DNA of 64,000 bases from Streptomyces sp. NBC_00525 (GTDB lineage Bacteria > Actinomycetota > Actinomycetes > Streptomycetales > Streptomycetaceae), in contig NZ_CP107834.1 of assembly GCF_036346595.1 (NCBI RefSeq), positions 6,696,001 through 6,760,000 of the forward strand, written 5' to 3'. Under the pieces are notes generated by a model, which worked only from the letters and a program-made list of their open reading frames with translations, had not been told where the DNA came from and ran no database searches. The first letter of the stretch is position 1. Every line of letters starts with the position of its first letter. The translations under genes and the position numbers were made by a program. Shown here one piece after another: positions 46,322 to 64,000 of this stretch.

Positions 46322-47200
46322 TTACGACCCCTCCGTGAACATGGAGGCGTGGTCGGCGGCCCACTGGCGAAACGTTCGCGGCGATGTCCCGAGAATGTCG
46401 GCCACCGCAGTGGTGATGTACGCGGGCTGCCCGACCGCCGCTTTCCACGCGGCGAGCAGCATGTCGACGGCCGAGCTGGGCGCCGTACCCGCCCACAGGC
46501 TTCGGAACTTCTCCGGCGTGATCTCCTCGAACGCGATCCGGCGCCCCAGGGCGTCACCGATGGCGTCCAGCTGCGCGGCTTGGGTCAGTGATTCGGGGCC
46601 GGTGAGGACGTAGTCGCCCCCGACGTATCCGTCCTCAGAGAGCGTCCGCGCCGCGACGGCTGCGATGTCGCGGTCGTCGACCGGTGCGGACTCGGCAGCG
46701 CCGTACGGCCACCGCACGACTTCACCGGCCCGGATCGCGGGCGCCCACCAGGCCAGTGAGTTCGATGCGAACATCCCCGGCCGGATGATCGTCGCATCGA
46801 GTCCGGTGGCCGCGATGAGCCTTTCGATGTCGGCGTGCAGCACGGCCATGGGATTGGGCTGCTGAAAGAGGGGGTGCGGCGTCTGATGCGGGGAGGAGAG
46901 GAAGACGATCCGCCGCACGTGGGCTGCCAGCCGCTCGACGACCGCCGCGGCGGTCTGAGGCGGGGCGGTCCAGACGAGGAAGACCGCACCGGCGCCGCTC
47001 AACGCCGGGTCGAGCGACTCGGGCACGGTGAGGTCACCGACGAAGACCTCGGCCTTCGCCGGCAGAGTCGCCGCAGCAGCAGCGCTGCGGGTGAGGGCCC
47101 GGACCGTAACGCCCGCGTCGAGCAACTGGTCGACGACGAGGCGGCCGACCCGGCCCGTGGCCCCAGTGACGAGCACGGGGGAGTGGTCTATCTGATTCAT
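46322..47200 (-). CDS. NmrA-family NAD(P)-binding protein
   Basis: 292 residues from ATG. PVLVTGATGRVGRLVVDQLL is the nucleotide site. VFLSSPHQTPHPL, IIRPGMFASNSLAWW and YVLTGPESLTQAAQLDAIGD match NmrA/NAD(P)H azoreductase-like proteins. Divergent from a TetR gene with repeated sequence between them, so it is probably that repressor's target. Confidence 0.92.
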   Translation of the reverse strand: MNQIDHSPVLVTGATGRVGRLVVDQLLDAGVTVRALTRSAAAAATLPAKAEVFVGDLTVPESLDPALSGAGAVFLVWTAPPQTAAAVVERLAAHVRRIVFLSSPHQTPHPLFQQPNPMAVLHADIERLIAATGLDATIIRPGMFASNSLAWWAPAIRAGEVVRWPYGAAESAPVDDRDIAAVAARTLSEDGYVGGDYVLTGPESLTQAAQLDAIGDALGRRIAFEEITPEKFRSLWAGTAPSSAVDMLLAAWKAAVGQPAYITTAVADILGTSPRTFRQWAADHASMFTEGS

Positions 47201-47217
47201 GCGCCCATGAAATCGTT

Positions 47218-47249
47218 ACTCAGTTAAAAATGCAACTCAGTCACAAATG
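47218..47249. promoter_or_regulatory. Two direct 15-bp repeats in the divergent promoter, likely operator
   Basis: ACTCAGTTAAAAATG (47218-47232) and ACTCAGTCACAAATG (47235-47249) differ at two positions and are spaced by 17 bases from start to start. They overlap the space between the NmrA-like and TetR genes. Confidence 0.6.
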
Positions 47250-47262
47250 TTACAGTGGTCAG

Positions 47263-47859
47263 ATGAGCGAGTTGACGGGACTGCGGGCCCGTAAGAAGGA
47301 GCGGACGCGCGACGCCATCGCAGGCGCGGCCGTCTCGCTGTTCCTGGAGCGCGGCTTCGACCGCGTTTCGGTCAACGACATCGCTGCGGCGGCCGAGGTC
47401 TCCAAGCCAACTCTCTTCCGGTACTTCCCCACCAAGGAAGACCTGGTGCTGTACCGCTTTGCGGATCACCAGGGCGAGGCCGCACGCGTCGTACGGGACC
47501 GTGAACCCGGCATCAGGCCGGTGACGGCGCTGCACCAGCACTTCCGGGCCGGCCTCGATCAGAACGACCCCGTCACCGGCCTCAACGACCATCCCGAGGT
47601 GGTGGCATTCCATCGGCTGGTGTTCACCACACCGAGCCTGGCGGCACGGCTCACGCGCTACCAACTCGAAGACGAAGAGGCACTGGCGGCCGCCCTCGGC
47701 GAAGACATCCAGGCACGCCTGCTGGCCGCCCAGGTACTCGCGGTCCAACGGGTGCTCGCCCGCACCAACTGGCAGAAGATCGCCCACGGCCGCACCGCCC
47801 ACGACGTCCACCCCGAAGCCACAGCCGACGCCGACCAGGCATTCAACCAACTGCCGTGA
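47263..47859 (+). CDS. TetR-family transcriptional regulator
   Basis: 198 residues from ATG. Helix-turn-helix: AIAGAAVSLFLERGFDRVSV, IAAAAEVSKPTLFRYFPTKE. The ligand domain includes FHRLVFTTPSLAARLTRYQL. It likely represses the divergent NmrA-like gene through the direct repeats just upstream. Confidence 0.93.
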   Translation: MSELTGLRARKKERTRDAIAGAAVSLFLERGFDRVSVNDIAAAAEVSKPTLFRYFPTKEDLVLYRFADHQGEAARVVRDREPGIRPVTALHQHFRAGLDQNDPVTGLNDHPEVVAFHRLVFTTPSLAARLTRYQLEDEEALAAALGEDIQARLLAAQVLAVQRVLARTNWQKIAHGRTAHDVHPEATADADQAFNQLP

Positions 47860-48154
47860 ATCTGCGGTCCGAGGGGCTGGGCAGGAAGACCGGTTCGGTA
47901 CCGCGCGCGTCCGAAGAAACCCGGCTTCGCCGCGGACACCAAGCTGTACGGCGGAAACCGATATTGCTTCACCACGCGGCGCTGAACACCCCCACCGGAC
48001 AACGGGCGAGCCGGTGGGCACGACGGTGTGCGATTGCCGCACCGGCGACGTGGCCCGCGAAGTGGCGCCCCGCCTCCGTGCTACCGCGCGTACCTCCGCA
48101 ACAGCCCGTCCCTCATGATCGTGTTCTCAGCAAGGGGCGGACGGGTTCTGAGCA

Positions 48155-48544
48155 GTGTCGGCGCATGCGGAGAAGGACAGCGTTGTGCTGCAGCGTCTCG
48201 CGCAATGTCCGTACCCCTTCGTCTGGCAGGCCCTGGCTGCAAATCCCCACACCCCGCCAGTCGCCCTGCAGGAGCTGAGCACGGCCCGAGACAGCATCTG
48301 GAACGACAACCGGCTCCTTTGTCTGCTGGCAAAACATCCCGGCGCGAACCCTGACGTCCTGCGAGCCGTCCTCGGCGCCGTTGCCGCGAAACTCGAGGAG
48401 GGCGAACGGCCCTACGCCGCCGTGCTTGCTCTCGCAGACCGGCTGGAGCTTGAAGCGGACGAGGTGAGGAAGCTCGGCAACCTCCGCGCTGCCTCTGCTC
48501 GTCTACGCCACCTGCTCGGACTGCGGTTGAGCCTTCGCGCCTGA
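48155..48544 (+). CDS. Small LRV-repeat-like protein
   Basis: 129 residues from GTG. PYPFVWQALAANPHTPPVAL and LLAKHPGANPDVLRAVLGAV are units of leucine-rich-variant type (N-P/H-P-x(4)-L). The short length and missing repeats suggest a truncated member. The 295 bases upstream carry no convincing continuation. Function unknown. Confidence 0.65.
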   Translation: MSAHAEKDSVVLQRLAQCPYPFVWQALAANPHTPPVALQELSTARDSIWNDNRLLCLLAKHPGANPDVLRAVLGAVAAKLEEGERPYAAVLALADRLELEADEVRKLGNLRAASARLRHLLGLRLSLRA

Positions 48545-48649
48545 TGCGTCCTTCTGGTCACGGGCGAGATGATCTTGTCGTGCCTGGTGTGCTGCAAGTT
48601 CTGAAATGATCAGTAGAGACAGGCCCGTTCAGCGCTTACGATCACGCTC

Positions 48650-49519
48650 ATGTCCCTCACCTCACCCATACCCGTCCTGCGTGGTTCCGGCGGAGCCGTC
48701 CTCCAATCCGAAGGCGACGACCTGGTACTGAGCCGGGCGGACGTGGAGACGCGGATTCCGCTCCAGGCCGTCCGGCGGATCCGCGCCGAAGGGAGCGCGG
48801 TCGCCGTGGAGCTCACCGCCCCCGCCGGGACGGCCCCGGCCGTTCACCGGGTCGACGGCTTGAGCCGGGCGGCCGTCACGGTCTTCGCCGACGCGGTCAA
48901 CGCGGCCCTGCCCGAGCGCGCCGAGGAGGCCGGGGAGACCGCCGACGGTTCGGCCCTCGTCACGGTCCGCGCCCTGACCGAGCCCCCCGAGTCCGAGCAG
49001 GACAGGCGTACGCGCGTGTTCAGGCTCTGGCTCAAGACCGTCGCCCTCGTGACCGTCGTGCTCGCTGTGGCTGTCGGTATCACGTCGCAGGCGGTCCTCG
49101 GGTTGTCGGTCCTGGTCCTTCTCCCCATCGGCCTTACACTCACCACGGGCGGCTACATGGGGCTGAAGATCGTCTGGAAGCAGTGGTACCTGCCCCGCAA
49201 GGGCATCACCGTCGTGGCGGTACGGCGCGAAGGCGCGACCGACGAGTTCGGCGGGACGGGGAACTTCGTGTACATGGACCTGCACGGCCAGAGCCGTGCC
49301 ATGTACGCCCAGAGCCGCGCCGAGGACATCCCGGTCGCCTACCACCCGGAGCGCCCTGGCACCGTGGCGGCCTGCCAGTCGTGGCTGCGCAATTCCGTTG
49401 AGACCGTGTTCAACGTGGCCCTCTTGCTCCTCGGCCTCGCCATCGACGCCCTCATCGTCGGCCTGGCCGTCGGCGCTTTCCTGGGCCTGTACGACGATTA
49501 CGTGTACACGCTCGGCTGA
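48650..49519 (+). CDS. Membrane protein with DUF3592-like C-terminal part
   Basis: 289 residues from ATG. The N-terminal about 90 residues look like a soluble, PH-like sheet (VLQSEGDDLVLSRADVETRI). Two or more helices follow (KTVALVTVVLAVAVGIT, VLGLSVLVLLPIGLTLTTGG), then a strand-rich stretch (RAEDIPVAYHPERPGTVA), as seen in DUF3592 proteins, and a last helix pair. Function unknown. Confidence 0.8.
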   Translation: MSLTSPIPVLRGSGGAVLQSEGDDLVLSRADVETRIPLQAVRRIRAEGSAVAVELTAPAGTAPAVHRVDGLSRAAVTVFADAVNAALPERAEEAGETADGSALVTVRALTEPPESEQDRRTRVFRLWLKTVALVTVVLAVAVGITSQAVLGLSVLVLLPIGLTLTTGGYMGLKIVWKQWYLPRKGITVVAVRREGATDEFGGTGNFVYMDLHGQSRAMYAQSRAEDIPVAYHPERPGTVAACQSWLRNSVETVFNVALLLLGLAIDALIVGLAVGAFLGLYDDYVYTLG

Positions 49520-49818
49520 CCCAAACGCCCCGCGACCCCACCCGGCCTGGTGATCCACTCCGAGCGGCACGGCACGGTCGCCTGTGCGGGCGGCTCACCG
49601 CACCCAGCAGACCGGCCGCGGTGAGCCCCGGCGCCGTGACCACGTCGTAGCCGACCACCACAACCACCTGCCCGGAGGGAACCCATGCTGGATTCCGCGT
49701 CGGGTGAATCGTACGGTCAGTTTCTTGTGCGGTGTGTTCGACTCGTCTTCCGCGGCAGCTGGGCGGGTGTCACCACCTCCGCTGGAACCGCTCCTCCCTG
49801 GGTGATGTCTGGGCAGAC

Positions 49819-50262
49819 GTGGCTGATCTTCTGTTCCTTGCAGTGCTCTTTGCACCCTTTCTGGCGCCCGGGGTCCTCCTGGGCGCTGCCATCGTCTTCG
49901 TCCTACGGGTCCGTAAGCAGCGACCGATCCTGGTCGGGCGCCTGCCAAACCTCGCCACCTCCGTCCTGCTGGCGGTCATGGCCGGCGCAGCGGCGTTCGG
50001 AGCGTACTCGTGGGGCGTGCTGTCGGGGTTCTACATCCTGGACCCGGATCAAATGTGCGCAGCGCAGGGCGTACCTGGCGATCACATAGTGACGCGATGG
50101 ACGTTGCCGGTCAGTGCCCAGTGCGTCACATCGGACGGTGTGGGAACCGAGCTGGCGCCAGGCTGGGTGAATCCTGTGATCTTTGCAGGCCTCGCGCTGC
50201 TGCTGCTGGCCCTCACCACAGGATTCCTCGCAGCGGTGCGCCGGCGCCCTTCCCCGCGGTGA
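49819..50262 (+). CDS. Hypothetical membrane protein, three helices
   Basis: About 147 residues if the GTG at 49819 is used (the frame stays open back to an ATG at 49729-49732, but the first 29 codons look non-coding). Helices: ADLLFLAVLFAPFLAPGVLL, TSVLLAVMAGAAAFGAYSWG and VIFAGLALLLLALTTGFLA. A Cys-containing loop lies between helices 2 and 3. Its 3' end overlaps the convergent Tpg-like frame by about 50 bases. Confidence 0.6.
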   Translation: MADLLFLAVLFAPFLAPGVLLGAAIVFVLRVRKQRPILVGRLPNLATSVLLAVMAGAAAFGAYSWGVLSGFYILDPDQMCAAQGVPGDHIVTRWTLPVSAQCVTSDGVGTELAPGWVNPVIFAGLALLLLALTTGFLAAVRRRPSPR

Positions 50263-50596
50263 GGCGTTCGACCGCAGTGTGCCTCCGCGCCCACGAGGCA
50301 CGTCTCGCCCACTGGGACGCGCGCTTCACCGCTCGCACAGCCACCCCTGCGTGCTCCATGAGGCGCTTCTGCGGGGTCGTCAGCTTCCCGGCCCGGTAGC
50401 GCTCCACGGTCCGGCGTGAGAAGCCCAGGCGCTCCGCCAGGGCCTTGGCCGGCCCCTTCGCCCGCGTGAGAAGAAATTTCACCTGGGCCTTTGCAGATTC
50501 CGGCACGGGCCGGGTGTACACCCGCCGCTCCGCCTGTACGAGGGCTTCCAGGACTGTGCCGCGGCTCGGGGCCGGCTGCTGCTTGTGATCGCTCAT
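50213..50596 (-). pseudogene. tpg: Tpg-like telomere terminal protein, N-terminal fragment
   Basis: 127 residues from ATG. VLEALVQAERRVYTRPVPES, AKAQVKFLLTRAKGPAKALA and GFSRRTVERYRAGK match the start and helix-turn-helix of Streptomyces Tpg, the protein attached to 5' ends of linear replicons. Intact Tpg is about 185 residues, with a RWQPQVR segment and a TRARFGF segment later. Both are absent here, and the tail after residue 85 is unrelated. A C-terminal Tpg fragment lies just upstream on the same strand. Confidence 0.7.
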
Positions 50597-50611
50597 ATGT
50601 TCCAGGAGGCC

Positions 50612-50862
50612 GCGGATCGCGTGTGGACAGAGAGTGGGCGTCTGACACGCCCTGAGAAGGCCTGGGTGATGTCCCGTATGCGGACGTCGTCGGTTGTTAC
50701 CCCCGGCGGCTTCGAAGCCGAAGTGCGCGCGGGTGGAGACGACCAGCCCGGTCGTGGTCGCCGCCCTTCTTCCTCACCTTCGCGCGGACCTGCGGCTGCC
50801 ACCGCTTCGTCACCTCGCGCTCCAGGCGGCCGCGCAGCGCCTGACGATAGCCACGAAGCGTC
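50612..50862 (-). pseudogene. tpg: Tpg-like C-terminal fragment with frameshifts
   Basis: Minus-strand frames read LRGRLEREVTKRWQPQVRAK, then one frame over LVVSTRAHFGFEAAG, then another frame TTDDVRIRDITQAFSG. In order these are the conserved Tpg C-terminal segments (ER..RKRWQPQVR, TRARFGF, TDDARIRRIT). At least two frameshifts break it. It precedes, rather than follows, the N-terminal fragment, so the locus is rearranged. Confidence 0.7.
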
Positions 50863-51766
50863 AGGGGTGTGGTTTTGGTGTCTGGAGGAGGCTGAGTGCT
50901 GCTTCGTTGAAAGCACGTGTGCGGGCTGTCGCACTGTCGATGGACGAGATCAGGCCCCAGTTCACCGGTGTGGCATCCGTGAAGGGTATATATGCGACGT
51001 CGGGGCGGGCGAGATACCGTCTTGTGTGGGCTGCGACGATGAAGGCTCCCTCTCCGGCTCCCACGAGTGTCAGCGTTTCGTTGAGTGTCATGGCCGGTGG
51101 GCCGAGCTTGATCGGTTTCCCGGCGGGGGTCTGGCTCGGTGCCTGGTCCCGGCGCAGGGGTTCCGGGAGCGTCTCGGGTATTTGCAGCAGGGTCACGCGA
51201 GCCAGGTCTTCGACGGAGACGGTCGTTCGGCGGGCGAAGGGGTGTTCTGCCGGCACGGCGAGCATGCGTGCTTCCCGTACCAGGACGGGTCCCGTGACGA
51301 TACCTTTCTCGCGCATCGGGTAGCGGGTGAGCGCGATGTCCACCTCACCTTCGCGCAGCCAGGGCAGGACCTGTGGCAGGTGTGCCTCTTTGATCTCGAC
51401 CTCGCAGTCGGGGTGCCGCATGCGGAAGGCCTGTTTGGCCCCGGCCAGTAGCTGGCCCGCCGCAGGTCCGGTGAAGGCGATCCTCAACAGCCCGGTCAGC
51501 CCTTTCCCGGCCTGGACGGCCCGCTCGTACGCTTCGGTGATCCGGGACCACGCGGGGCTTACCTCTTCGAGGAACTGCTGTCCCATCGAGGACAGTTCCA
51601 CCCGGCGGCTGGTGCGGTGGAACAGGGGCATGCCCATGCGGCGCTCCAGTTTGGCGACCGTCTGGCTGACCCGGGCCGTGGAGACGTGCAGCCGCTCGGC
51701 GGTACGGCCGAAGTGCAGCTCCTCGGCAAGCGTCAGGAAGACCTCCAGCTCGTGCCGCTCCAGCAT
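50861..51766 (-). CDS. LysR-family transcriptional regulator
   Basis: 301 residues from ATG behind GGGAGGG. Winged helix: LERHELEVFLTLAEELHFGR, HVSTARVSQTVAKLERRMGM. The effector domain is complete (LRIAFTGPAAGQLLAGAKQA to the C-terminus). Divergent from the SnoaL-like gene at 51896, which it probably regulates. Its stop lies against the Tpg relic. Confidence 0.93.
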   Translation of the reverse strand: MLERHELEVFLTLAEELHFGRTAERLHVSTARVSQTVAKLERRMGMPLFHRTSRRVELSSMGQQFLEEVSPAWSRITEAYERAVQAGKGLTGLLRIAFTGPAAGQLLAGAKQAFRMRHPDCEVEIKEAHLPQVLPWLREGEVDIALTRYPMREKGIVTGPVLVREARMLAVPAEHPFARRTTVSVEDLARVTLLQIPETLPEPLRRDQAPSQTPAGKPIKLGPPAMTLNETLTLVGAGEGAFIVAAHTRRYLARPDVAYIPFTDATPVNWGLISSIDSATARTRAFNEAALSLLQTPKPHP

Positions 51767-51895
51767 CCCGCACCCTCCCATCGTTAATCGTGGCTTCACG
51801 GTCGTTGCCCAGAAGCGCGTTGATGCTCTGTGCGGTCCTCAGCACGATGAGAGCCAAGCCCTTGCCAGGGCACCTCACCCGCACGGGAGAACATC

Positions 51896-52402
51896 ATGTA
51901 CGTCACGCACGACCGCGCCCTGACCGCCCCCGCGCACGACATCGCCGCGACCGTCGCCGAACTGAGGGACCGGGCGGAAATCACCGACGCACTCCACCGC
52001 TTCGGCCTGGGCCAGGACCTGAAGGACAAGGAACTCTTCGCCTCGGCGTTCGCCGTCGACGCCGAGCTGGATTTCCGTCCCGCGGCCTCCGCATGGGGCG
52101 CAGAGCCCCCGCTGATGTCCGGACGCGATGCCATCGTCACCACCATCCTGGCCATGTTCACCGGCCGGGTGGACACCACACACCAGATCACCAACACGCG
52201 TATCTCGATCGACGGCGACACCGCCCGGCTCACGGCCCTGGTGGAAGCACAGCACCTGCTCATCGCCGACCCCGCCACGCACGCCCTGCTGAAGAACCCC
52301 TACGACGTGGACCTGGTCCGCGACGGCGACCGATGGGTCATCCGCCGGCTCCGCATCGACAACACCTGGTACACCGGCGAACCCGCCGTCATCTTCGGCT
52401 GA
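51896..52402 (+). CDS. SnoaL-like (NTF2-fold) protein
   Basis: 168 residues from ATG. LRDRAEITDALHRFGLGQDL, KELFASAFAVDAELDF and VDTTHQITNTRISIDGDTAR, ending RLRIDNTWYTGE, match SnoaL_4-type cone-shaped domains that bind small hydrophobic ligands or act as hydratases or isomerases. Divergent from LysR and followed by a cupin gene. Confidence 0.88.
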   Translation: MYVTHDRALTAPAHDIAATVAELRDRAEITDALHRFGLGQDLKDKELFASAFAVDAELDFRPAASAWGAEPPLMSGRDAIVTTILAMFTGRVDTTHQITNTRISIDGDTARLTALVEAQHLLIADPATHALLKNPYDVDLVRDGDRWVIRRLRIDNTWYTGEPAVIFG

Positions 52403-52496
52403 CCCACGCCCACCGCACGCCGCTTCCCGAGCCGGGGACCGGCAGATGTCTCCGCTCCCTGCACGACCCTCTCTGGAGAATCAGGAAGGACCCGAC

Positions 52497-52997
52497 ATGA
52501 AGAACACAGAGACCCATGTACCACTGGTGCTGACCCGTCACACCGAGGCCGAGACCTGTGCCGACCCCAGCAGTGTGATGACGCTGCTCGCCGACACGAA
52601 CAGCACCACCGGCGGTTTCACCAGCTATCGATCCACTTTCGCCAAGGGCGCCGTAGGGGCACCCGCCCACTTCCATACCAAGGCGACCGAGCTGTTCTTC
52701 GTGATCGGCGGCTCCCTGCAGGTGCTGATCGGTGAGGAGGTCACCGTCCTGGAGGCCGGTGATTTCCTGGCCGTGCCGCCCCGTACCCCGCACGCCTTCG
52801 CGGCGGCGCCGAACGGTGAGGCGGACGTGCTGTTCGTGTTCACGCCGGGCATGGGCCGGTTCGACTACCTGCGCCTGCTGGGCCGGGTGATGCGGGGCGA
52901 GGCCGACCCCGCGGAGATCGCCGCCTCCGCGGAACGGTTCGACAACCACTACGTCGACAGCCCGGTCTGGCGGGCTGCCCTGGAGACCGAGGCGTAG
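52497..52997 (+). CDS. Cupin-domain protein
   Basis: 166 residues from ATG with AGGAAGG upstream. APAHFHTKATELFFVIGGSL and EAGDFLAVPPRTPHAF are the two cupin motifs. The three metal ligands (two His, one Glu) of motif 1 and the His of motif 2 are kept. This single-domain cupin, 94 bases after the SnoaL-like gene, probably shares its operon and the LysR control. Confidence 0.88.
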   Translation: MKNTETHVPLVLTRHTEAETCADPSSVMTLLADTNSTTGGFTSYRSTFAKGAVGAPAHFHTKATELFFVIGGSLQVLIGEEVTVLEAGDFLAVPPRTPHAFAAAPNGEADVLFVFTPGMGRFDYLRLLGRVMRGEADPAEIAASAERFDNHYVDSPVWRAALETEA

Positions 52998-53907
52998 TCG
53001 GGCATCCCGGTGTCAGTCACCTGTGGAGCTGCATCACGACCGGCCTTTGTGGACTGGGGTGTTGCCCTCCTGGTGATGGGAATCTCAAGGGGTTCTGATC
53101 GTGCTTGCTGTTATGGCTGGTCCCGCCGGGGTGCCGGACCTCAGTGCCATACCCGCGCCCGGCGGGCTCCGCCGTGCAGAGGGCTACTGCATGGTGAAGC
53201 CGAGACCCCTGGACCTCGCACCGACAAAGACCTGCGCACGGCCATGGAGATGCGGCAGCTGGTTGAGCAGGGCGCCTTCGGCGCCACTGCCCTCCAGGCC
53301 ACGCTTCAGCCCTTTCTGGATGTGGATGAGGCGGAGATGGAGGACGAACGCGATGCAGGAGAGGTGCCGTGGACTGCGCATGAGGCTCCACTGCGCAGAA
53401 ATCCTGGTGATCCGGTCCGTAGCGATGCGCGGTCGGTGTACGACGTGTCGTAGGACGCGGAACCGAGAATGATCGGGATCGGGGTGTCCAAAGGACGTCG
53501 GGGTGCGCAGCAGGGCGGGTGCCGGTGAGCCCGTCATCCGCCCTGCTGCCCTCGCCTGGCTTGACGAACCGGACGCTTCCGGCTGACCGGGCCAACCGGA
53601 GCACCGGCCCGCGCGGTGGACGCCTGCCTGAGGATGGGACGGGAGCCGGTAGCCTGCCCGGGGCCGCCGAGCGAATCCCCGGCTCACCGGCTCACCTTGC
53701 GCAGCCGGTTCCCCCCGGAGGGAAAGCGCAGAGGACGACCCGCAGCGCAGGATCCGTGCCCGGCCGGATCCCGGCGACCGGGCACGACGCTGGACGGGAC
53801 GGACCACGCACCGCATCCCTGACCGGCCGAGTCCCTTCAGCCAGCAGGAACACAATCTGCGGCCCGCCGTCCAGCTCCCTCGCCGGTGCGCGCTACCTCA
53901 GCGTGCG
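52998..53907. other. Gene-poor stretch with remnant-like frames
   Basis: About 900 bases with no supportable complete gene. A short plus-strand frame near 53220-53450 (AMEMRQLVEQGAFGATALQA, then LDVDEAEMEDERDAGEV) looks protein-like but has no start. A perfect hairpin lies at 53507-53549. Confidence 0.45.
53507..53549. repeat. Perfect 12-bp inverted repeat
   Basis: GCAGCAGGGCGG and CCGCCCTGCTGC separated by 19 bases. Not adjacent to a clear gene end, so its role is unknown. Confidence 0.7.
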
Positions 53908-54930
53908 CTAGTCGAAGAGTGAGTCCTGCACGGGGGCGGTGCTGCGGGGGCGGGGGAGTGGCCGGCGCTGGTCCTTGGGGGGTGGTGGGGCGCCTTCGTC
54001 GCCGTCGGTCAGAGCGTGCCGGCAGGCGGCTCGCAGGTCGGGCAGCTCGAGGCGGGCGCCCAGCAGGCCGAGGAAGTCGGCCACGCTCCAGTCGATCAGG
54101 GCGCCCTGGCGCGAGAGATACAGGCTGACCCTCTCGATGGCGTACTGGTTGCTGTAGTCGAGCAGGAGGTAGCCGGCGAGCTGGTAGATCTCGGCGCGGC
54201 CCAGTCGTTCGGGGCGGATGGTGGCCTTGCAGTCGATCAGGGCCCGGTCGAGGATGAAGTCGGCGTCCGCGCCGCCGACGTGCAGGCTGCCGTCGAAGAC
54301 GGGCCCGCAGATCCGCCGGTCGGCCGGCAAGCTTCGCAGGGCTGTGAAGGGGCCGGGGCCGGAGGCGAGTGCCATCTGTGCGCGGATGTCGTCGACCACA
54401 TAGCCGGGAACGGCTGCCGCCAGGTCGTCCAGGCCTGCTCCGGGTTCGCACAGGCCCAGAGTGTTACCACGTACCCACCCCGCATGCCGGAAGATCGCTT
54501 CGAAGCCGGAAGCGAGGTGACACAGTCGGATGAGCCGTTCCTCGGCCGCCGGTTCAAGAGCCAGGGGCTGGCCCTCGGCCGCTTCGTACCGGTCCAGTTC
54601 CTCCAACAGCACCATGCCAGCCGCCTGGACAGCGCTGATGATTTCCAGGCTGGGCCAGCCGTCGTCGTCGAGCGCTGCGCGGCGCACGCCTTCCCTGATG
54701 GGCTGGCCCGTGGGTGCTCCGAGGCTGATGCGCAGCCGGTGGTCGATCGTATGGCCCAGCATCCGCCAGTCAGGACGCTGTCCCGACGGCGCGGCGGGAA
54801 CGACGTGCGCGGTGCTGCGCCGCACGCGCAGCCGATAGTCGGCCAGCACGTTCTCAGGCTGGGGCAGATGTTCCGAAAGGAACCGGGACATGGGGGAACC
54901 AGGGTCCTTGAGAGACGATGTGAGACTCAT
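53908..54930 (-). CDS. PD-(D/E)XK nuclease-fold-like hypothetical protein
   Basis: About 340 residues from ATG 54930 (no clear ribosome site; the frame is open to 55056). The central GADADFILDRALIDCKATIR has the Asp...Asp-x-Lys spacing of PD-(D/E)XK nucleases. It is followed by GRAEIYQLAGYLLLDYSNQY, the usual helix after the active site. An N-terminal helical half (LRISLGAPTGQPIREGV) precedes it. The Pro-rich tail is short. Neighbours are a deleted IS element and telomere-gene relics. A nuclease role is inference. Confidence 0.78.
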   Translation of the reverse strand: MSLTSSLKDPGSPMSRFLSEHLPQPENVLADYRLRVRRSTAHVVPAAPSGQRPDWRMLGHTIDHRLRISLGAPTGQPIREGVRRAALDDDGWPSLEIISAVQAAGMVLLEELDRYEAAEGQPLALEPAAEERLIRLCHLASGFEAIFRHAGWVRGNTLGLCEPGAGLDDLAAAVPGYVVDDIRAQMALASGPGPFTALRSLPADRRICGPVFDGSLHVGGADADFILDRALIDCKATIRPERLGRAEIYQLAGYLLLDYSNQYAIERVSLYLSRQGALIDWSVADFLGLLGARLELPDLRAACRHALTDGDEGAPPPPKDQRRPLPRPRSTAPVQDSLFD

Positions 54931-55167
54931 GCGCGCATCGTGATTGAAGGGTCTGACAACGGCACCCAGAAGAATCGATCCGGCTGTTGGTGGGTGCGTC
55001 CGGAACCAGACGATGCCCGGGCGAGCCATGAGGGGGACGTCCGCATTGACCAGCACCTTCCTCCAGGAGGAAGCAGCCGACTGTGCATGTGTGTCGAATT
55101 TCGGTCAACTGTGCGCTCTTGAGGCGGAGGCGCGCACCTGCATGCCTCCATTGTCAGTCCCGGCCGC

Positions 55168-55599
55168 TAGCGAGCTCGTGCACGGTATGCGGTGAGACGT
55201 CGAGCCACGGAAGGTCGATCATGGTGGGGTGGTGGGGACCGTATTGTTGCCGATGCCGGCTACGAGGGCCTCGGCGCTCCGACCGGTGGACGCGTGGTGA
55301 CACCACCGCACCGCAAGTTCAAGAAGGACGCCCCGGACTGGTACCAGGAGATGCGCGAGCGACAGTGCAAGGCGCACTCATCACGTCGCATCCGGGTCGA
55401 GCACGGCATCGCCAACCTCAAGAACTGGCGGTCCCTGGCCCGCCGCCTCGGCCGCCGTGCTCACATCAGTGACACCGTCCAGGCCGTCGCCGGCCTGCTG
55501 TCCCACAGCGCCGCGGACCTGAACCCACGACGACGGAGGCGAGCACCAGGCGTGGAGGAGCCCTCGGCGTCTCGCCACCTACCGTGCACGAGCTCGTTA
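55168..55599. mobile_element. Deleted IS5-family element with terminal inverted repeats
   Basis: Left end TAGCGAGCTCGTGCACGGTA (55168-55187, the match continuing into GTGAGACG) and the reverse complement of the right end TAACGAGCTCGTGCACGGTA match closely over about 33 bases, around a truncated transposase gene. The element is only 432 bp, so most of the transposase is gone. The ends fit a TA target duplication. Confidence 0.8.
55234..55530 (+). pseudogene. Transposase fragment, C-terminal part (IS5-type DDE)
   Basis: The frame reads GDRIVADAGYEGLGAPTGGR, VVTPPHRKFKKDAPDWYQEM, RIRVEHGIANLKNWRSLARR and DTVQAVAGLLSH. These contain the second catalytic Asp (VADAGY) and the catalytic Glu (RVEHGIA) but not the first Asp, which lay in the deleted N-terminal part. 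It cannot be active by itself. Confidence 0.85.
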
Positions 55600-56348
55600 G
55601 ACCGTTTGAGGAGCCGGGGATCCGGCTCAGGCCCGTGCATCGAGGCCTTCGATGACGACAGCAGGGGATCGCCACGCCTGCAACCGCAACAACAGTCGGC
55701 GACGGCGCAGCGGAAATCGGCCAACTCCGATCTGAGAAAAGCTGGTTAGAGGATGCCGTAGGGAGCGGAATTGTCAGACCCTTCCGTTAGGGTGACCCGC
55801 TGCCGACGCGGCAAGCAGTCGGCGGCACAACCTCCGGTGTGAAAAGCGTGGGAAGTGCGAGGAAGGGCGGCCTGGAAGACCACCGCCGCGTGCATGACGC
55901 CGGGGAGCGCCGAGGGCTTGAGGGCTACTGCCCCGCCTGCGGATTCTCCCGGTCGGGCCAGAGCGCCGCAGTGATGGACGCGGCCGAGGAGGGATCTCCC
56001 GCCCTGTGAACGCGAGGACGCGGCAGTCGGGATACAAGCGCAGCATCATAGGCGGAACATCCTGAAGATGCGGTAAGGCAATGTAAATTGTGAAATAGGG
56101 CGATCATGGTGATTCTGTAATGTTTGGGTGATTCGCTTAACCAGGCTTTCGTAACGACTGGAAGCAGCACCAACGCCGGCGCGCACGGCCTAAGTTACGG
56201 CACACCGAACCCCCTTGCGCGGCGCCTCCCAACCCTTCAGGTCCGTACATGGCAGGCCGACGCGTGCCTCCCCCAGCCGGCTCTTTGCCGCGCTTTTCGA
56301 CCCACCGCCCTTGAACGCGAACGCGCACGACTTGCAGGAGACCGAACA
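55600..56348. other. Intergenic region, AT-richer near 56060-56150
   Basis: Holds a small palindrome GAGCCGG-GGAT-CCGGCTC (about 55609-55626) and a notably AT-rich stretch (GTAAATTGTGAAATAGGG around 56083-56100), a likely promoter zone for the following cassette. No supported gene. Confidence 0.5.
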
Positions 56349-56779
56349 ATGGGATTCGGACGACTCGGAGCCCACGGGGTGCCCGCAGCGCTCGCCCTCA
56401 CCACCACCCTCGACGAGATCGCTGGCATCTTCCAGCCGTATCTCACCCCCAGGGAACGCCACCGCAGCCACCTGCTGTACCTGACCCGCTCCCGCGCCGG
56501 GTACGCCTTGATGCAGCAGAGCGGAATCCTCCTGGACCCCCGGAAGATCACCGCATGGCTGTCCGAAGAGCGCATCCCCAGCGCCGAACAGCAACAGCGC
56601 CTTGACGAAGCTTTCCGCCTGCTGCGCCGCCGTAACATGCACCAGCCTGACGCGCCGGCTCAACAGCGGCGGCGGAACCCGTGTGGAGATCCCCCCCGCC
56701 GACCAGAGCTATGCCGACGCCAAGCATCAGCGCGTGGCCAGGTGGCGGCGGAAGAACATCTACCGATGGGACCCCATAA
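56349..56779 (+). pseudogene. First gene of the Tap-like cassette: small HTH-like protein (frameshifted)
   Basis: ATG behind GCAGGAG. The first frame reads SRAGYALMQQSGILLDPRKI, TAWLSEERIPSAEQQQRLDE and AFRLLRRRN. One base out at about 56640, the next frame continues SLTRRLNSGGGTRVEIPPAD and RWRRKNIYRWD. A further one-base shift at a CCCC run near 56774 would end it at TAA 56777. The layout (helix-turn-helix, LRRR segment, GGGTRVEI strand) recalls Tpg, but similarity is loose. It leads the cassette and was probably its DNA-binding or terminal-type protein. Confidence 0.55.
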
Positions 56780-56808
56780 AGCCCCACACCGCCCACCAGG
56801 AGACACCC

Positions 56809-57626
56809 ACGACCATCGCCCCAGCGCCGGCCCTCGACGACGAGTCGGTCGGAGAACCCGACTTCTATCTCAACCTCACCGACGCCCGCATCGTCGCCAC
56901 CGAAGCACTCCTCGAGGCCAGTGAGAACATCGCCGACACCATCGAAGCCCGCGCCATGTCGTGCTTCTTCGGCGATGCTGGCCTCGGCAAGACCTTCTCC
57001 GTCCTGGCCGCGCTCAAGGAAGTCGCCGCGGACCGCGTCCTGCTGCTGCAGTTCCGCTCCCACCCCACCCCGCGCGACATCCGCATGGAACTGTTCACCG
57101 CCCTGCGCCTCGAAGGAGAACCCCCTTCCCACCCGAGCGAGTTCGACCGGCCGCTCAAGCGCACCCTGGCACGCAAGCCGTACGTCATCGTCTGCGACGA
57201 AGCCCAGCAGTTCAGCCGTGAGTGCTTCGAATTCGTCCGCCACCTCTGGGACACCGGCAAGGGCCCCACCCGTCCCGCTGTTCTCTTCGTCGGTGGCGAA
57301 GAGGCCTACAAAACCCTCTACAGCGAACCCGCCCTCGCCTCCCGCATCCACATCCGGCAGGAATACACCCCCATGGGCCTCGAAGAGGCTCAGCGCAACA
57401 TTCCCCTCTTCCACCCCATCTGGGCCAACGCACCCGCCGAACTCATCGAGTACGTCGACGACGAAGGCGGCGCTGGCACCTTCCGAATGTGGTCCAAGAT
57501 CACCTACCACATCCTCGAAGGCATGAAGCGGCGCGGACCACCGAAGCCGACGAGACCATCGCACGCTGGGCCATCCGCCGCGCCCTGCCCCACCGCAGCA
57601 GGAACCCCCGTACCAAGGAAGCCTAG
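56809..57626 (+). pseudogene. AAA ATPase of the cassette (TniB/MuB-like), ACG start and frameshift
   Basis: About 272 codons. The start codon position holds ACG after a perfect AGGAGA, where ATG would be expected. Walker A is FGDAGLGKTFS (residues about 54-64) and Walker B YVIVCDEAQQFS (Asp130, Glu131). VLFVGGEEAYKTL and RIHIRQEY follow, as in AAA_22 ATPases that accompany transposases or replication proteins. Near 57524 the frame shifts by one base, after which ADETIARWAIRRAL leads to TAG at 57624. The TAG overlaps the next gene's GTG. Confidence 0.7.
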
Positions 57627-58388
57627 TGACCAGCCCCATCGGCACCCAGGCACACCACTACCTCAACCTGCCCGACGCCCGCACCGTGACCACCCATGCG
57701 GTGCGCGCCGCCGCTCATGCCCTCGACACCACCATCCAGCACAGCGGCATCCTCTGCCTCGCCGCCGACCCCGGCATCGGTAAATCCTTCACCCTCCACA
57801 CCCTCCTTGACCAACGCCCCCACCTGCCCGCCCTCCGCCTCCTGGTCCGCCCCAAGCCCGCCCCGACGACCTGCGCCACAGCCTCCACGACGCCCTCGGC
57901 GTCGCCGGCAGCCCACCCAAAGACCCTGGCATCTGTGACGACTACCTACGCCACACCCTGCACGAACCCCACCGGATCATCGCCATCGACGAAGCCCACC
58001 AGCTCTCCGCTGCCTGCATCGAGTACATCCGCTACCTCTACGACGACCCCACACCCACCTCACCCTCGTCCTCCTCGCCAACCAGCCACGCCTACGTGTC
58101 CTCCAAGCCAAACCCGTCCTCGCCTCACGCGTCACCACCTGGCACACCATGTACCCCCTCACCCCCGCAGAGACCCTCACCGCCATTCCCACCCTCCACC
58201 CCGCATGGGAACGCATCGCACCCGAGACCATCAGCAAACTCGACGCCACCTGGGCAGGCGGCAACCTCCGGCGCTGGGCCGCCCTGACCCACCGCCTCTT
58301 CACCCATCAGCGCCGCACCCCCCAGCCCACCACCCCCGCCGCCCCCCTCCGGCCCCTGCAGCCCACCCGGGTGGCGCCCACCCCATGA
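57626..58388 (+). pseudogene. Second AAA ATPase of the cassette, two frameshifts
   Basis: GTG overlaps the previous stop. Frame 1: HYLNLPDARTVTTHAVRAAA, then Walker A AADPGIGKSFTLHT. Frame 2 (from about 57855): DDLRHSLHDALGVAG and Walker B HRIIAIDEAHQLSAACIEYI. Frame 3 (from about 58050): LTLVLLANQPRLRVL and WAGGNLRRWAALTHR to TGA 58386. The three parts make one normal AAA ATPase related to the preceding one, broken by two indels. Its stop overlaps the next ATG (ATGA). Confidence 0.68.
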
Positions 58389-59533
58389 CCCCCGACAGCA
58401 CCCAGACATCCGCGCCTCCCCACGAGACAAGCGGCTGGAAACCTCACTGGAGCCCCGAACAGACCAACCCGGACCTGCCCCCGATCACCGTCATCAACGA
58501 CCCCGACGACCTGACCCCCTTCACCACCAGCGCGCTCGCCGCCCGCCACCCCGCACGCGGCCGCATCACCATCCACCCAACCCCCTTGGCCACCGCACCC
58601 GCCTACCTGGCCCACGACCTCATCCGCGCCCTCGGCAAACACCTGCCCACCCCCAGCCCCGGCGCCGAACCGCCCTGGTGGACCGCCAACGCCGGCGAAT
58701 CCTGGCGCATCGCCACCGCCTGGACCCAGGCCCTCCACATCCACCACTACGTCCTGACCCGCGCCCACCGGATCCCCAGCCGCCACTACGAACACCTCAT
58801 GGCCCTGCGCGAACACACCGCAATCCACCTCACCCTCATCGTCAGCGGCCCCACACCCCCCGCGCTCCACGACATCCTCACCACCGTCCAGCACCACCAC
58901 ATCGACACCACCGACGCGGCCCGCGCCCACCTCACCAGCAACGAACACCCCGCAACAGCCACACCACACCCCTGGTGGAACGCCGCACCCTTCCCACCCA
59001 GTCCCGACGAGTACTGGTTCCAGCTGCCCCCACGCCCTCACGGCCACGAAGCCTGCGCGACGACCACAGCCGCCCCCGCCCACTTGCCGCCCCTCCCACC
59101 ACCAGCCCACGCCCGACCGCCATCCCCCTGCACAGCCCCATTCCCGACACCGCGCTCACCACCGTCGCTCAGCGCATCCACACGCACATCGCTCACCCCG
59201 TCCACGCGGCAGCAGTCGCGCTCAGAGCCCTCACCGGCTACGACACCGACCAGCTACGACACCTGGCAGAAGAGCCCACACCCGCCGGTCGCAGACCGGC
59301 ATTCGCCGACGACCTGCCCTCCTGGGTGACACCCCTCATCGACGCCGCATACGCCTACACCCAACTGCAGAGCCCTCACCGGCAAGCAACCCGTTCTCCT
59401 TGTCCTCCCGGGACAGAGACGACATCGCCCACGCCACCGAAACCTGCCGCCTCCTCACCCCGCCCCCGCCCCCCGATCAGCCCGCGTCCCCCACCCCACC
59501 ACGGCGCCCCGGGAAACAAAGGACCCATCGTGA
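58385..59533 (+). pseudogene. Unknown protein of the cassette, frameshifted
   Basis: ATG overlaps the ATPase stop. The first frame, to about 59080, reads SGWKPHWSPEQTNPDLPPI, TWTQALHIHHYVLTRAHRIP and HHHIDTTDAARAHL. A shifted frame continues IPDTALTTVAQRIHTHIAHP, ALRALTGYDTDQLRHLAEEP and LPSWVTPLIDAAYAYTQLQS. The last frame ends at TGA 59531, overlapping the next GTG. At least two indels. Pro/His/Thr-rich composition. Family unknown. Confidence 0.55.
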
Positions 59534-60798
59534 ACCCCTTCGACCCCATCGACACCCTCCTGGCAACCGCAGACATCCCCCTGCCGGCCGCCTCAGAACG
59601 CCGCCGCCTACGCCGAACCTTGCGCCTTGACACACAATCCGTCGCCCAGGCCCTGGACATCACCGCCAGCACCCTCAACTCCTGGGAACAAGGAAGCGAA
59701 CCCGTCGGCGCAGCGCGCGTCCGCTACGCCTACTTCCTGAGTAAAGCCCGCATGCTGACCCCGACCGAAACCAGCCAGCCCCAACCCCACACCGGCACCC
59801 ACCCACACCCCCGAGCCGCGAACCCCGCAGGGCCAGCGCCTCGACACTCCCCACGCCCACCCGCTGGCGACCCGATCAGCGATACCGTGAGTGCCGCCCT
59901 GGACTACTACGGCGGTGACTGCGGCAAGGCAACCGAAGAACTCGTCAAGCGCGCGATCCCGCACGCGATGCGCCTGTTCAACCACACCCGGGTAGGCGGC
60001 CGCTACGACGTCGTCGCCTACCCGCCGATGCCCGACATCCTCAGCCGAAGCAGCCCCAACACCTCCGACCAGATCTGGGAAGCCCGACCGAACTGGCAGC
60101 GCCCCGACGCCGACCCAACCGAGGCCGGTCCCGTCGCCGCCCTGGACATCAACGGCGCCTACCTCTCCGCCCTGAAGACCCACCTGCCGCTCGGCGCCCT
60201 GCAGCACCAGACAGGCGCTCCCCACGACCGGCGCCGTTCCGGCTTCTACCGCATCACCCCACCCCGATGGGAGCACGACGCCTACCTGCCCAACCCGTTA
60301 GGACACCGCCTCGAACCCGGTCCTCTCTGGGTCACCGAGCCCACCATGAGGCTGATCCTGCAACTCTCCGAGGGCGAGAAGCCCCTGTGTGATCCGCCGG
60401 TGATCCATGAGTCCTACACCTCGGGCTCCACCGAGGGACTCCTCGAGAAATTCCGTACTCTGCTCAGAGACGCACGAGCCACAGCCCTTCACCACAACGA
60501 CGAAGTGACCCTCGGCTACGTGAAGAGCATGTACTCCAAGTTCGTCTCCACTATGGGCGACTCGAACCACAACAGGGAACTGCACCGCCCCGACTGGATG
60601 CACATCATCCGCTCGCAGGCATTCGCCAACCTCTGGCGCAAGGCACACCACGCCCACACCGACCAACTCACCGTCGTCCGTCTGTGCGGCACCGACGAAC
60701 TCCACGTCCGAGGAGACTGGCGTCGCACCTTCACAGAAGGCACCGGACTCAACGAAGTCAAGCTCAAGCGCACCACCGAGGGCGGCGAAGAGAACTGA
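59530..60798 (+). CDS. Tap-like protein (telomere-associated, HTH + DNA polymerase B-like palm motifs)
   Basis: 422 residues from GTG with AAAGGACCC upstream, intact. N-terminal XRE helix-turn-helix (about 26-55): LRRTLRLDTQSVAQALD, STLNSWEQGSEP. After a Pro-rich linker the C-terminal half resembles Tap of Streptomyces linear replicons: LDINGAYLSALKTHLPLGAL (Asp206, Tyr211), KSMYSKFVSTM (Lys332), RPDWMHIIRSQAFANLWRKA and LCGTDELHV (Asp389). Tap binds telomeric 3' overhangs and recruits Tpg. Codon 257 is TTA (60298-60300). Last and cleanest gene of a five-gene cassette. The family call is from memory and moderately sure. Confidence 0.68.
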   Translation: MNPFDPIDTLLATADIPLPAASERRRLRRTLRLDTQSVAQALDITASTLNSWEQGSEPVGAARVRYAYFLSKARMLTPTETSQPQPHTGTHPHPRAANPAGPAPRHSPRPPAGDPISDTVSAALDYYGGDCGKATEELVKRAIPHAMRLFNHTRVGGRYDVVAYPPMPDILSRSSPNTSDQIWEARPNWQRPDADPTEAGPVAALDINGAYLSALKTHLPLGALQHQTGAPHDRRRSGFYRITPPRWEHDAYLPNPLGHRLEPGPLWVTEPTMRLILQLSEGEKPLCDPPVIHESYTSGSTEGLLEKFRTLLRDARATALHHNDEVTLGYVKSMYSKFVSTMGDSNHNRELHRPDWMHIIRSQAFANLWRKAHHAHTDQLTVVRLCGTDELHVRGDWRRTFTEGTGLNEVKLKRTTEGGEEN

Positions 60799-61336
60799 CC
60801 GCAGGCCGGGATCGGAGACGAGCAGCCGACCTCGCGGTGCCGGTTCCTGCAGTTCATCCTCACCCCACTTCTGGAGGGACGGGGAGGCATGGAACCGCGG
60901 TCAGAACCTCGGAAAGGACGCTTTCCTTGCCTTCCCCCAGGTCGGGCGGAGCCCGTGGTCAGCTCGCTGACTGGGACAAGACGGCGACCCGGCAGGTCCG
61001 CTGATCCATAGCTGGTTTCGTCTTCCCGTACGCAGGTGGGCGAGGTCTGTGCCAGGGGCCGCTGTCAGGAATGTGCGGACGTTCCCGCGTGTGTACGGGT
61101 CCCACGGCTGTACCTCTGCGTTCGTGCCGACTGCCAGCAGGGGTACTGCACTTGCGGGCTATGCGGCTCGGAGTCTGCTTGACGACAGCCACATGGAGCC
61201 AGGAGCCCGACCGGTCGCTGTCGAGGGACAGACAGGCGGGCGGCCGCTGTGGTGCCGGGTCCTGGTGACGGAAGTGAATCCGCTGGCAAGGCTAGGGTCT
61301 TGCTGATGGGGCGGGAGGAGGGAAGGAGTGACTGTC
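60799..61336. other. Intergenic region without a supported gene
   Basis: About 540 bases between the Tap-like gene and the large right-hand gene. I see no convincing ORF, hairpin or repeat. It ends with GGAAGGAG, the ribosome site of the next gene. Confidence 0.5.
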
Positions 61337-64000
61337 ATGGGGGTGTCGTTGTACTCGGTGGGCGGCGGAGGGACGGTGCTGGAGCACCGGTACGCGGCCG
61401 TCCTGCTTTCCGCGCTGCTGACCGGCAGCGCACTGGACGAACTTGGCGACGCCTTGATCGAACCGGAGCAGATCCGTCTGCAGGCACGGTTCCTCACCCG
61501 CGTCGACGACATCATGATCACCGGACACCGCCGAGGCGGGACGGACGAGTTCACCGCCTGCATCGGAGTGCGGCGCAACCCCAGCTTCGTTCCCTCCGAC
61601 GACCCGACCGTCACACTCGTCGGCACCTACCTCACAGAGATCACGGAGCACTGGGGAGAGATCGAGTCCGGGCACCGCAGGCTCGTCCTGGCGGTCGCCG
61701 AACGCAGCCCTCACGCCATTCAGGTGGCGTCCCTCACCTCACTCGCCCGGGGACAGAGCCCGGAAGGTTTCCGGCGGATCGCCGCCCAGTCCGGCCCCAC
61801 GAGCACTGACGTGCGTGGCCGCCTGGCCATGTTCGACCAGGTCGTCGCCGAAGCCGCAGCCCGAAACCGTCTGGACACCAGTGCTGTCGATGTGGCCGAG
61901 CTGTCCTGGCGGCTGCTGTCGAACCTGAGGGTCAAGCATCTGCGCCTGGAGGACGGCGATGGGCAGGACCGCAGTCACGCGATCGACCGGCTGCGCCCGG
62001 TCGCGTTCGAGGACACCCTGGAAGGGGCGGAGGCGGTTTTCTCGGACATCGAGCACAAGGTAGGCGACTGGGTTCCCAACGGCGCGTGGATCAGCGAGAA
62101 CACGCTGCGCCGTGAGCTCGCCCCCCGGCTGAAGCAGCGGTTCTCTGTCATCGCAGCGCCGCACCGGCAGCGGCGGCCCGTGGAGTCGGACGCGGTGATG
62201 CGGGGTCCCCTCGCCCACCTGGGCCTCGACCGGGACTTCGAGCAGGCCCGGCTGATGGAGACGACCCAGCCTGCCGAGGCTGCCGCCCGGTATGCAGCAC
62301 TGGCGCAGGCGCTGGACGATGCCGGCTGGCCGTCCTTCTCCCTGTCCGTGTGCCAGAGGCAGGCGGAAGTTCTGCACGAGGCGGGTGACCACGACGCCGG
62401 CACGCTGATCCACGTGTCCGTCATGGCCGCCGCTCTCGAAACAGGTGAACCGTGGCTGGCGAACTCCGTCATCCAGCGGCTGTCCGACCAGCAGATCGAT
62501 GCTGCCGACCACCTGATCCGCTCAGCGAACGCACTGGGAGGCCTGGCGGCCTTCGAGCACTACCACCAGGTCTCCCTGACGGACGTCACCACCCACATCG
62601 ACGCCCTGCAGCCTCACAGCCCTCACGCTGTTCAGGCGGCAGCATGGTTCGCCGAGCACGCCGTCGCCCAAGGGCGGCCGGACCTGGTCCATGACCGGAA
62701 GGACGCCCTGCGAATCCTTGCCGACGGCGCCGCCGAGACCGAAGTGGTGGCCCAGGTACGCCTCTATGCCTGTCTGGCGGACACCGACCGCACGGGGACG
62801 ACCTGGAAGAACTTCATCCGGTCATCGTCCTACCCTCCGCCGGTCGCCGCGCTCCTGCGCGCCCGCCACGCCCGGTTCCTGGCCGAGACCGGAGACGGCC
62901 CGGGGGCACTCGAACGGTACGGAGAAGCGATCGAGCGAGCCGTTCACTACGGCAACCATCACGATGCCGCGGCGTGGATCGACGCACAGAGCCAGGTCCG
63001 CATCCGCTACCACCTCCAGACCAAAGAGCTCGGCCAGGCGTTTCCGACAACCACCGTCCTGCGCGCAGCCGGCCAGGGCAGCATCATGGGCGCCACGGCA
63101 GCAGTCCGCGAGCGGACCCTTGGACGGCTTGCGAACCGGGTGCACCCCGCCGACCGCCGCCAGGCACTGACCCAGTACCTGCGCCACAGCGTCGCTTCGG
63201 CAAGCTGGTCGGCCGAACGCGAAGCCCATGAACTGCTCGGACGTATGCATCTGGAGCACAAGCTGTTCAGCCAGGCCGCCGGCCATTTCACCAAGGCGGG
63301 CACCAGCAAGCTCATCCAAGAGCTGAGCGAGCACCTCCCCGATGCGCCGCTCGATCTGCCCGTGCCCCACCACTGGACGGACCTGCCCCGGTGGAAACAC
63401 CAGAGCATGTTCCTCACCGCCCGGACCCTGGCCGACCTGATGCCGGATCCGCAGGTCCGGGCCTGGGCGGATCTGGCCATGCAAGAGCTCTCCGGGCTCG
63501 CAACAGCCCGGCCCGACATGCCGTACGTGCACCACGAAGCTGCCGGACTGCTCGCAGCGGCCGCCCCCGCCCTCACCACCGACCAAGCCCGCCGGTTCCT
63601 CGACTTCACCGAGCAGTGGCACGCGACACGAACCACAGCCCACCCCAACGTCGGCGGCCCCTACGCCCGGACTCTCCTCGCTATCGCCCAGCACCATTCC
63701 GGCCCGGAACGTGTCGAAGCGGTCGACAGGGCGTGTCAGGCGATGCTCACCGACTACTCGATGTCGCAGATCGTCCTCACAGCGGGAGACATCCTCCGAC
63801 TGCTGCCCAGCGTCGTCGCTGAACGCTGCACGGCCGGCGCCGGCCGCGGGGGAGTGGTCGCAGCCCTCGCGCTCGTCCTGGCCGGCGCACCCGCCGACGC
63901 GGCCCGCCCCCTCGCACAGTCACTGCTCGACGCCACACTCCTGAGACCAGGCGCCGCCCCGTTGCCCGCAGAAGCAACCCTGCCCCGCACCGCCCTGCTG
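61337..64000 (+). CDS. Very large hypothetical protein, possible defence or conflict protein (3' end outside window)
   Basis: ATG behind GGAAGGAG, open for 888 codons to the window end. The N-terminus (LEHRYAAVLLSALLTGSAL, RVDDIMITG at Asp57/Asp58, then IGVRRNPSFVP about residue 76) has the outline of a PD-(D/E)XK nuclease domain of DUF4297/Cap4 type, although the usual Gln/Glu-x-Lys is V-R-R here. The next segment (TYLTEITEHWGEIESGHRRL) is also typical of large conflict proteins. The rest is a long helical region, LSWRLLSNLRVKHLRLEDG to AAARYAALAQALDDAGWPSF and further, with TPR-like repeats such as ARHARFLAETGDGPGALERY. Activity unknown. Confidence 0.7.
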   Translation, partial: MGVSLYSVGGGGTVLEHRYAAVLLSALLTGSALDELGDALIEPEQIRLQARFLTRVDDIMITGHRRGGTDEFTACIGVRRNPSFVPSDDPTVTLVGTYLTEITEHWGEIESGHRRLVLAVAERSPHAIQVASLTSLARGQSPEGFRRIAAQSGPTSTDVRGRLAMFDQVVAEAAARNRLDTSAVDVAELSWRLLSNLRVKHLRLEDGDGQDRSHAIDRLRPVAFEDTLEGAEAVFSDIEHKVGDWVPNGAWISENTLRRELAPRLKQRFSVIAAPHRQRRPVESDAVMRGPLAHLGLDRDFEQARLMETTQPAEAAARYAALAQALDDAGWPSFSLSVCQRQAEVLHEAGDHDAGTLIHVSVMAAALETGEPWLANSVIQRLSDQQIDAADHLIRSANALGGLAAFEHYHQVSLTDVTTHIDALQPHSPHAVQAAAWFAEHAVAQGRPDLVHDRKDALRILADGAAETEVVAQVRLYACLADTDRTGTTWKNFIRSSSYPPPVAALLRARHARFLAETGDGPGALERYGEAIERAVHYGNHHDAAAWIDAQSQVRIRYHLQTKELGQAFPTTTVLRAAGQGSIMGATAAVRERTLGRLANRVHPADRRQALTQYLRHSVASASWSAEREAHELLGRMHLEHKLFSQAAGHFTKAGTSKLIQELSEHLPDAPLDLPVPHHWTDLPRWKHQSMFLTARTLADLMPDPQVRAWADLAMQELSGLATARPDMPYVHHEAAGLLAAAAPALTTDQARRFLDFTEQWHATRTTAHPNVGGPYARTLLAIAQHHSGPERVEAVDRACQAMLTDYSMSQIVLTAGDILRLLPSVVAERCTAGAGRGGVVAALALVLAGAPADAARPLAQSLLDATLLRPGAAPLPAEATLPRTALL

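Follow-up and report, generated by a model that had tools for sequence, protein, structure and literature searches.

A probable telomere-associated, Tn7/Mu-type transposition module, now decayed, in the terminal repeat of a Streptomyces chromosome

A five-gene cassette and its decay

Five co-directional coding stretches lie closely packed at positions 56349 to 60798 of a 64,000-nucleotide stretch of Streptomyces sp. NBC_00525 DNA (here called the window), which spans positions 6,696,001 to 6,760,000 of a 6,805,448-bp contig (G000:C1); a second contig of this genome (G000:C2) has 296,756 bp. The first-pass annotation of the window had described this packing and the overlapping gene boundaries (TAGTG at 57624, ATGA at 58385, and GTGA at 59530), all of which are present. 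From computational observations of gene content, decay, location, and relatives, we conclude with considerable confidence that this cassette derives from a Tn7/Mu-type, telomere-associated transposition module and has decayed, and this assessment includes the mechanism proposed below.

All five genes are on the plus strand, and frameshifts in them were located by tblastn with the proteins of relatives. The first gene (56349 to 56778), previously taken to encode a small helix-turn-helix (HTH)-like protein, is instead a terminal-protein-like (TP-like) gene with 88 to 89% identity to P0211; it has one frameshift, at 56644 to 56687, and has lost the last ~40 of its 184 codons. It ends at a deletion junction (56777 to 56804) from which ~2.0 kb, including a TnsB-type transposase gene, is gone; matches flanking the transposase position are 26 bp apart in the window versus 2,059 bp apart in locus L078. 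Relatives have the transposase gene between genes 1 and 2, and no match to it was found in the window at an E value of 1e-6. The next two genes encode related MuB/TniB-like AAA ATPases, as had been proposed. The first ATPase (56809 to 57620), of the MuB/TnsC type, matches AAA_22 (E value of 1.1e-15) and, weakly, TniB; it has kept Walker A (GDAGLGKT at 56971) and Walker B (VIVCDEA at 57184), and its one frameshift, near 57540, is close to the 3′ end. The second (57626 to 58388) is a paralogue with 30 to 33% identity to the first and has two frameshifts, near 57865 and 58050. Gene 4 (58385 to 59524) has two frameshifts, near 59040 and 59370, and its product would have a TnsC/MuB fold without Walker A, judging by the predicted structure of a relative (L030:14538-15680). 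The fifth gene (59530 to 60798), for a Tap-like protein of 422 amino acids (aa), is the only one of the five that is open. We conclude that the module is dead, with its transposase deleted and four genes frameshifted; the Tap-like gene and a nuclease-like gene upstream stay open.

Frameshifts and a missing transposase could also arise from sequencing errors at high GC content. C-rich tracts are present, and the two chromosome arms are identical in the assembly, so that one error could have been copied. However, the gene 4 protein of S. termitum (P0160) ends in an out-of-frame tail identical to that of gene 4 in the window. Because of this match between the protein sequences, we regard that frameshift as genuine and common to both, and we discarded assembly error as an overall explanation for the decay. 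In addition, the neighboring Tap-like, nuclease-like, and tac genes (the last beyond the window) are open over 422, 382, and 718 codons, a 2-kb deletion is atypical of read errors, and genome completeness is 99.99%. An artefact is thus highly improbable.

We compared the left and right arms of the chromosome by blastn. Positions 1 to 56,709 matched 6,803,567 back to 6,746,859 with 100% identity. The window contains part of this 56,709-bp terminal inverted repeat (50859 to 64000, with the inner border at 50859), and the whole cassette is inside it, with a second copy on the left arm at 46,773 to 51,219. Outside the repeat, the right end continues for a further 1,881 bp to which nothing on the left corresponds, and there are no telomere-like palindromes at the right contig end; hence, the chromosome assembly ends before the true telomere. 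An inverted terminal repeat of 838 bp on the second contig is telomere-like, being palindrome rich with strong hairpins at its end (L026 and L027). At the left end of that contig (positions 1 to 951 studied), the first 113 bases look extraneous.

Relatives of the module and the ends of linear replicons

Of 39 public loci retrieved with gene 4, 9 have the order TP-like gene, transposase, ATPase, ATPase, gene 4 (a count that includes two identical contigs of one strain), which is more than chance. The transposase of these relatives matches TnsB (E value of 5.2e-28), its best PDB match is the type V-K protein ShTnsB, and its DDE residues are invariant (8/8). No TniQ or TnsD was recognized in the module. 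The first-pass annotation had asked whether the five genes always co-occur. They do not; the Tap-like gene mostly lies apart from the module, and in 37 of 47 places (from a total of 49, with the 2 in the window's own genome omitted) it immediately precedes a TP-like gene. Of 120 listed Tap-like proteins, 6 are on a contig whose length equals that of a contig with a gene 4 homologue. Among the 13 loci of subfamily A, a whole Tap-like gene is beside gene 4 in the window only; L078 and its twin contig, L079, have an N-terminal Tap-like match at that position.

It had also been asked where relatives are located, and the answer is mostly near the ends of linear replicons. Related ATPases were within 15 kb of a replicon end in 37 of 49 Streptomycetaceae records, versus 6.7 expected (sister plasmids being counted separately and linear topology not being confirmed record by record), and an IS5 control gave 7 of 44 versus 5.0 expected. 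These 49 records are the Streptomycetaceae among 60 listed of 88; the other 11, from Rhodococcus, Arthrobacter, Pseudonocardia, and Nonomuraea, were left out. ATPase orientation follows subfamily, with 12 of 12 close relatives pointing inward and 33 of 37 others outward. Across 256 genomes, 65 have related ATPases in their chromosomes, often in both arms (G258, G291, G051, and G129). In S. olivoreticuli (L105 and L106), a minimal trio of transposase, ATPase, and gene 4 lies 2.1 to 5.4 kb from both chromosome ends.

Subfamily A is also linked to tac. We found tac or tac-tpc within 10 kb downstream in 10 of its 13 loci (L066 was counted for tac, its sequence ending before tpc) versus 0 of 28 other loci; L075 and L076 have neither, and the downstream sequence of L090 is only 2.3 kb long. 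In the window genome, tac starts 6.2 kb past the Tap-like stop codon, 3.0 kb outside the window, and is followed by tpc; both are open. We identified this pair from the 55% identity of the 718-aa tac product to a protein of pFRL3 (L170:2787-4970), which is listed as SCP1 type in an excerpt of PMC8743542. Neither canonical Tap (NF047542) nor canonical Tpg (NF047541; cut-off, 90 bits) was over cut-off in this genome, whereas canonical Tap was over cut-off in 16 of 21 sampled genomes of the genus. A broken canonical tpg is present at 50315 to 50855 on the minus strand, as three partial NF047541 matches of 61, 26, and 26 bits. According to an excerpt of PMC7188733, K. viridifaciens lacks tpg and uses chromosomal tac-tpc. 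Since tpg is in pieces, canonical Tap and Tpg are not over cut-off, and tac-tpc lies beside the module, the window chromosome most likely uses tac-tpc. The tpg pieces are outside the repeat and exactly at its inner border, as if the border arose by recombination near or in tpg. On two linear plasmids, the gene immediately after the tpc-like gene encodes a helicase ("Helicase associated domain protein"; L193:3805-6156 and L198:3762-6275).

The tac linkage, the related ATPases in both arms, and a Tap-like gene that is open amid broken neighbors and whose 420-aa relatives show 97, 88, and 77% identity would also fit a domesticated telomere maintenance module. The ATPases, gene 4, TP-like, and Tap-like proteins would then serve end replication or protection, the transposase would be an ancestral leftover, and the window would represent an advanced stage in which the Tap-like gene was kept open. 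However, four of the five genes are broken while the chromosome stays linear with an open tac-tpc, plasmids L170 and L193 to L198 (chosen for that purpose) have tac-tpc but not the module, and the transposases of relatives have kept their DDE residues. We consider domestication unlikely.

The unit starts further upstream than 56349, at a divergent nuclease-like gene (53908 to 55056, minus strand; conserved part, 53911 to 54906). In alignment A5, its product has, as judged by eye, GGADADFIL..LIDCKAT and then QLAGY, as in PD-(D/E)xK nucleases, and this motif makes it a candidate TnsA-like subunit; it gave no Pfam match and no PDB sequence match (best E value, 1.4). Between the nuclease-like and TP-like genes is a partial open frame of an IS5-type transposase (55192 to 55749, plus strand; DDE_Tnp_4 at 30.5 bits, with a cut-off of 24.8), which probably entered the element later, once it had decayed.

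We propose that in working relatives of the Tn7/Mu-type module, the TnsB-type DDE transposase would cut and join the element, possibly assisted by the nuclease-like protein in a TnsA-type role. The target complex would be made up of two active TnsC/MuB-type ATPases and the ATPase-dead, TnsC-fold product of gene 4. Most likely, the TP-like protein ties this complex to telomeres or to their replication machinery, which would explain why relatives are found beside replicon ends; the transposase and the three TnsC-like proteins would insert the element there. In the lineage of the window, the Tap-like gene, the usual partner of the TP-like gene, would have joined behind gene 4. We infer telomere targeting by the TP-like protein, and likewise the nuclease function. 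The first-pass annotation had suggested a replication, end protection, or transposition module of a linear element; transposition and the link to linear replicon ends have held up, but a working five-gene system has not, as the cassette is decayed and without a transposase.

Several points weigh against a telomere-targeted transposition module. No transposon ends or target duplications were found, an inverted-repeat scan of L030, L033, L075, and L105 giving chance-level matches. No nuclease-like gene was detected in subfamily loci L087, L090, and L096. Some genomes have related ATPases far from the ends (e.g., G118:C1:4446826 and G007:C1:5278846), and the module in the window is itself ~50 kb from the end of a contig that stops before any telomere-like palindrome. 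Clustering of transposons at ends can also mean that ends tolerate insertions; IS5, the single control family, did not cluster. Lastly, one frameshift alone was confirmed in a second assembly.

The Tap-like protein and its predicted polymerase fold

As had been annotated, the last protein of the cassette is Tap-like. Its N-terminus, an HTH, matches the Tap profile NF047542 with an E value of 7.9e-20 (best stretch, residues 4 to 107); the score of 71.1 bits is below the full-length curated cut-off of 600. In the predicted model (pLDDT of 75), the C-terminal half has the palm and fingers of a protein-primed, phi29-type family B DNA polymerase. D206, K332, and D389 are invariant in the Tap-like family (D206 and D389 in 32/32 sequences), and the two aspartates are candidates for the catalytic residues of polymerase motifs A and C. 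We infer from the model that the Tap-like protein is a putative protein-primed polymerase, and this fold assignment is our most consequential result. We rejected the idea that the protein is truncated, since its closest relatives have 420 to 428 aa and are likewise without the zinc-finger-like insert that the ~510-aa forms contain. An open frame at G000:C1:4204914 was rejected as a second Tap; its HTH scored 80.5 bits (cut-off, 600), and it looks unrelated beyond the HTH.

Comparison of C-terminal halves with hhalign gave E values of 0.0015 for the Tap-like protein against canonical Tap and 0.038 against Tac (probabilities of 17% and 1%). Full-length profile comparisons gave 0.31 for the Tap-like protein against Tac and 0.42 for Tap against Tac, and the Tap-like and Tap profiles did not match beyond the HTH. 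That canonical Tap and Tac have the same fold is suggested only by a common motif order. According to excerpts of PMC4513846, Tap and Tac use their terminal proteins to prime DNA, which they extend with no added polymerase; the excerpts describe them as a new class without a DNA polymerase motif and show deoxynucleotidylation of the cognate terminal protein for these two, rather than for the Tap-like family. With the predicted Tap-like fold as direct evidence, we lean slightly toward the view that Streptomyces telomere-associated proteins are minimal phi29-type family B polymerases in which the exonuclease was swapped for a telomere-binding HTH, and that one branch was taken up, with its terminal protein, by a Tn7-like transposon. 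In the literature searched, we recognized no description of a TP-headed Streptomyces transposon or of Tap as a family B polymerase. The predicted fold and the candidate aspartates would make the question of a Tap/Tac polymerase directly testable by point mutation.

A polymerase of this kind could also be used by the element on its own behalf. The TP-like and Tap-like genes would then be cargo or self-capping genes rather than target selectors, and an element that supplies both the terminal protein and the priming polymerase itself could take over an end; this is compatible with a Tn7/Mu-type module. At L109, a Tap-like and a TP-like gene, both full length, come after the module, and such pairs occupy the extreme termini of chromosomes (e.g., G065, G049, and G068). 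However, in 11 of 13 subfamily A loci the operon opens with the TP-like gene and includes no Tap-like gene, which suits a role in transposition better. We regard self-capping as possible, if tentative. The L109 locus (L109:4479-14444, from Streptomyces sp. CB02923) belongs to a sister subfamily, has two gene 4 copies, and is a good candidate for a complete element. Further pairs are at extreme ends of chromosomes and linear plasmids (L031, L032, L073, L074, and G025). An excerpt of PMC8743542 states that the proteins of some telomere classes are unknown, and the pairs at the ends of many Streptomyces chromosomes are candidates for such classes (Sg2247, pRL1, and others).

Comparison with known systems

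If our interpretation is correct, a mobile element carries or exploits the machinery that primes linear chromosome ends. A TP-headed transposon operon linked to tac-tpc would be a concrete model of the way in which mobile elements locate the ends of bacterial chromosomes and perhaps take them over. Distinctive here are an operon headed by a TP-like gene, three TnsC-like paralogues (one of them dead), the tac-tpc linkage, and decay with the Tap-like gene kept.

Telomeric (Tn7-like) transposons have reportedly been described as a kind by Hsieh et al. (Science 387:eadp1973, 2025). Relatives of the module resemble them in lying at ends and in having no recognized TniQ; that description is not known to cover the TP-headed, tac-linked subfamily. 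With Tn7 and the core of type V-K CRISPR-associated transposons, relatives of the module have in common a TnsB-type transposase and TnsC/MuB-type ATPases. In contrast to both, the module has two active ATPases and an ATPase-dead third, no recognized TniQ or TnsD, and a TP-like gene heading the operon. The Tap HTH and the order of the Tap-like gene followed by a gene for ~190 aa recall canonical tap followed by tpg; however, the Tap-like protein falls far below the Tap cut-off, and TP-like proteins match Tpg in 2 of 24 cases (best E value, 0.011). Tac-Tpc of SCP1-type telomeres is represented in this genome by the 718-aa protein, but tac-tpc is beside the cassette and not inside it. Compared by predicted fold with phi29 DNA polymerase, the Tap-like protein would have an HTH in place of the exonuclease domain, at 13% identity.

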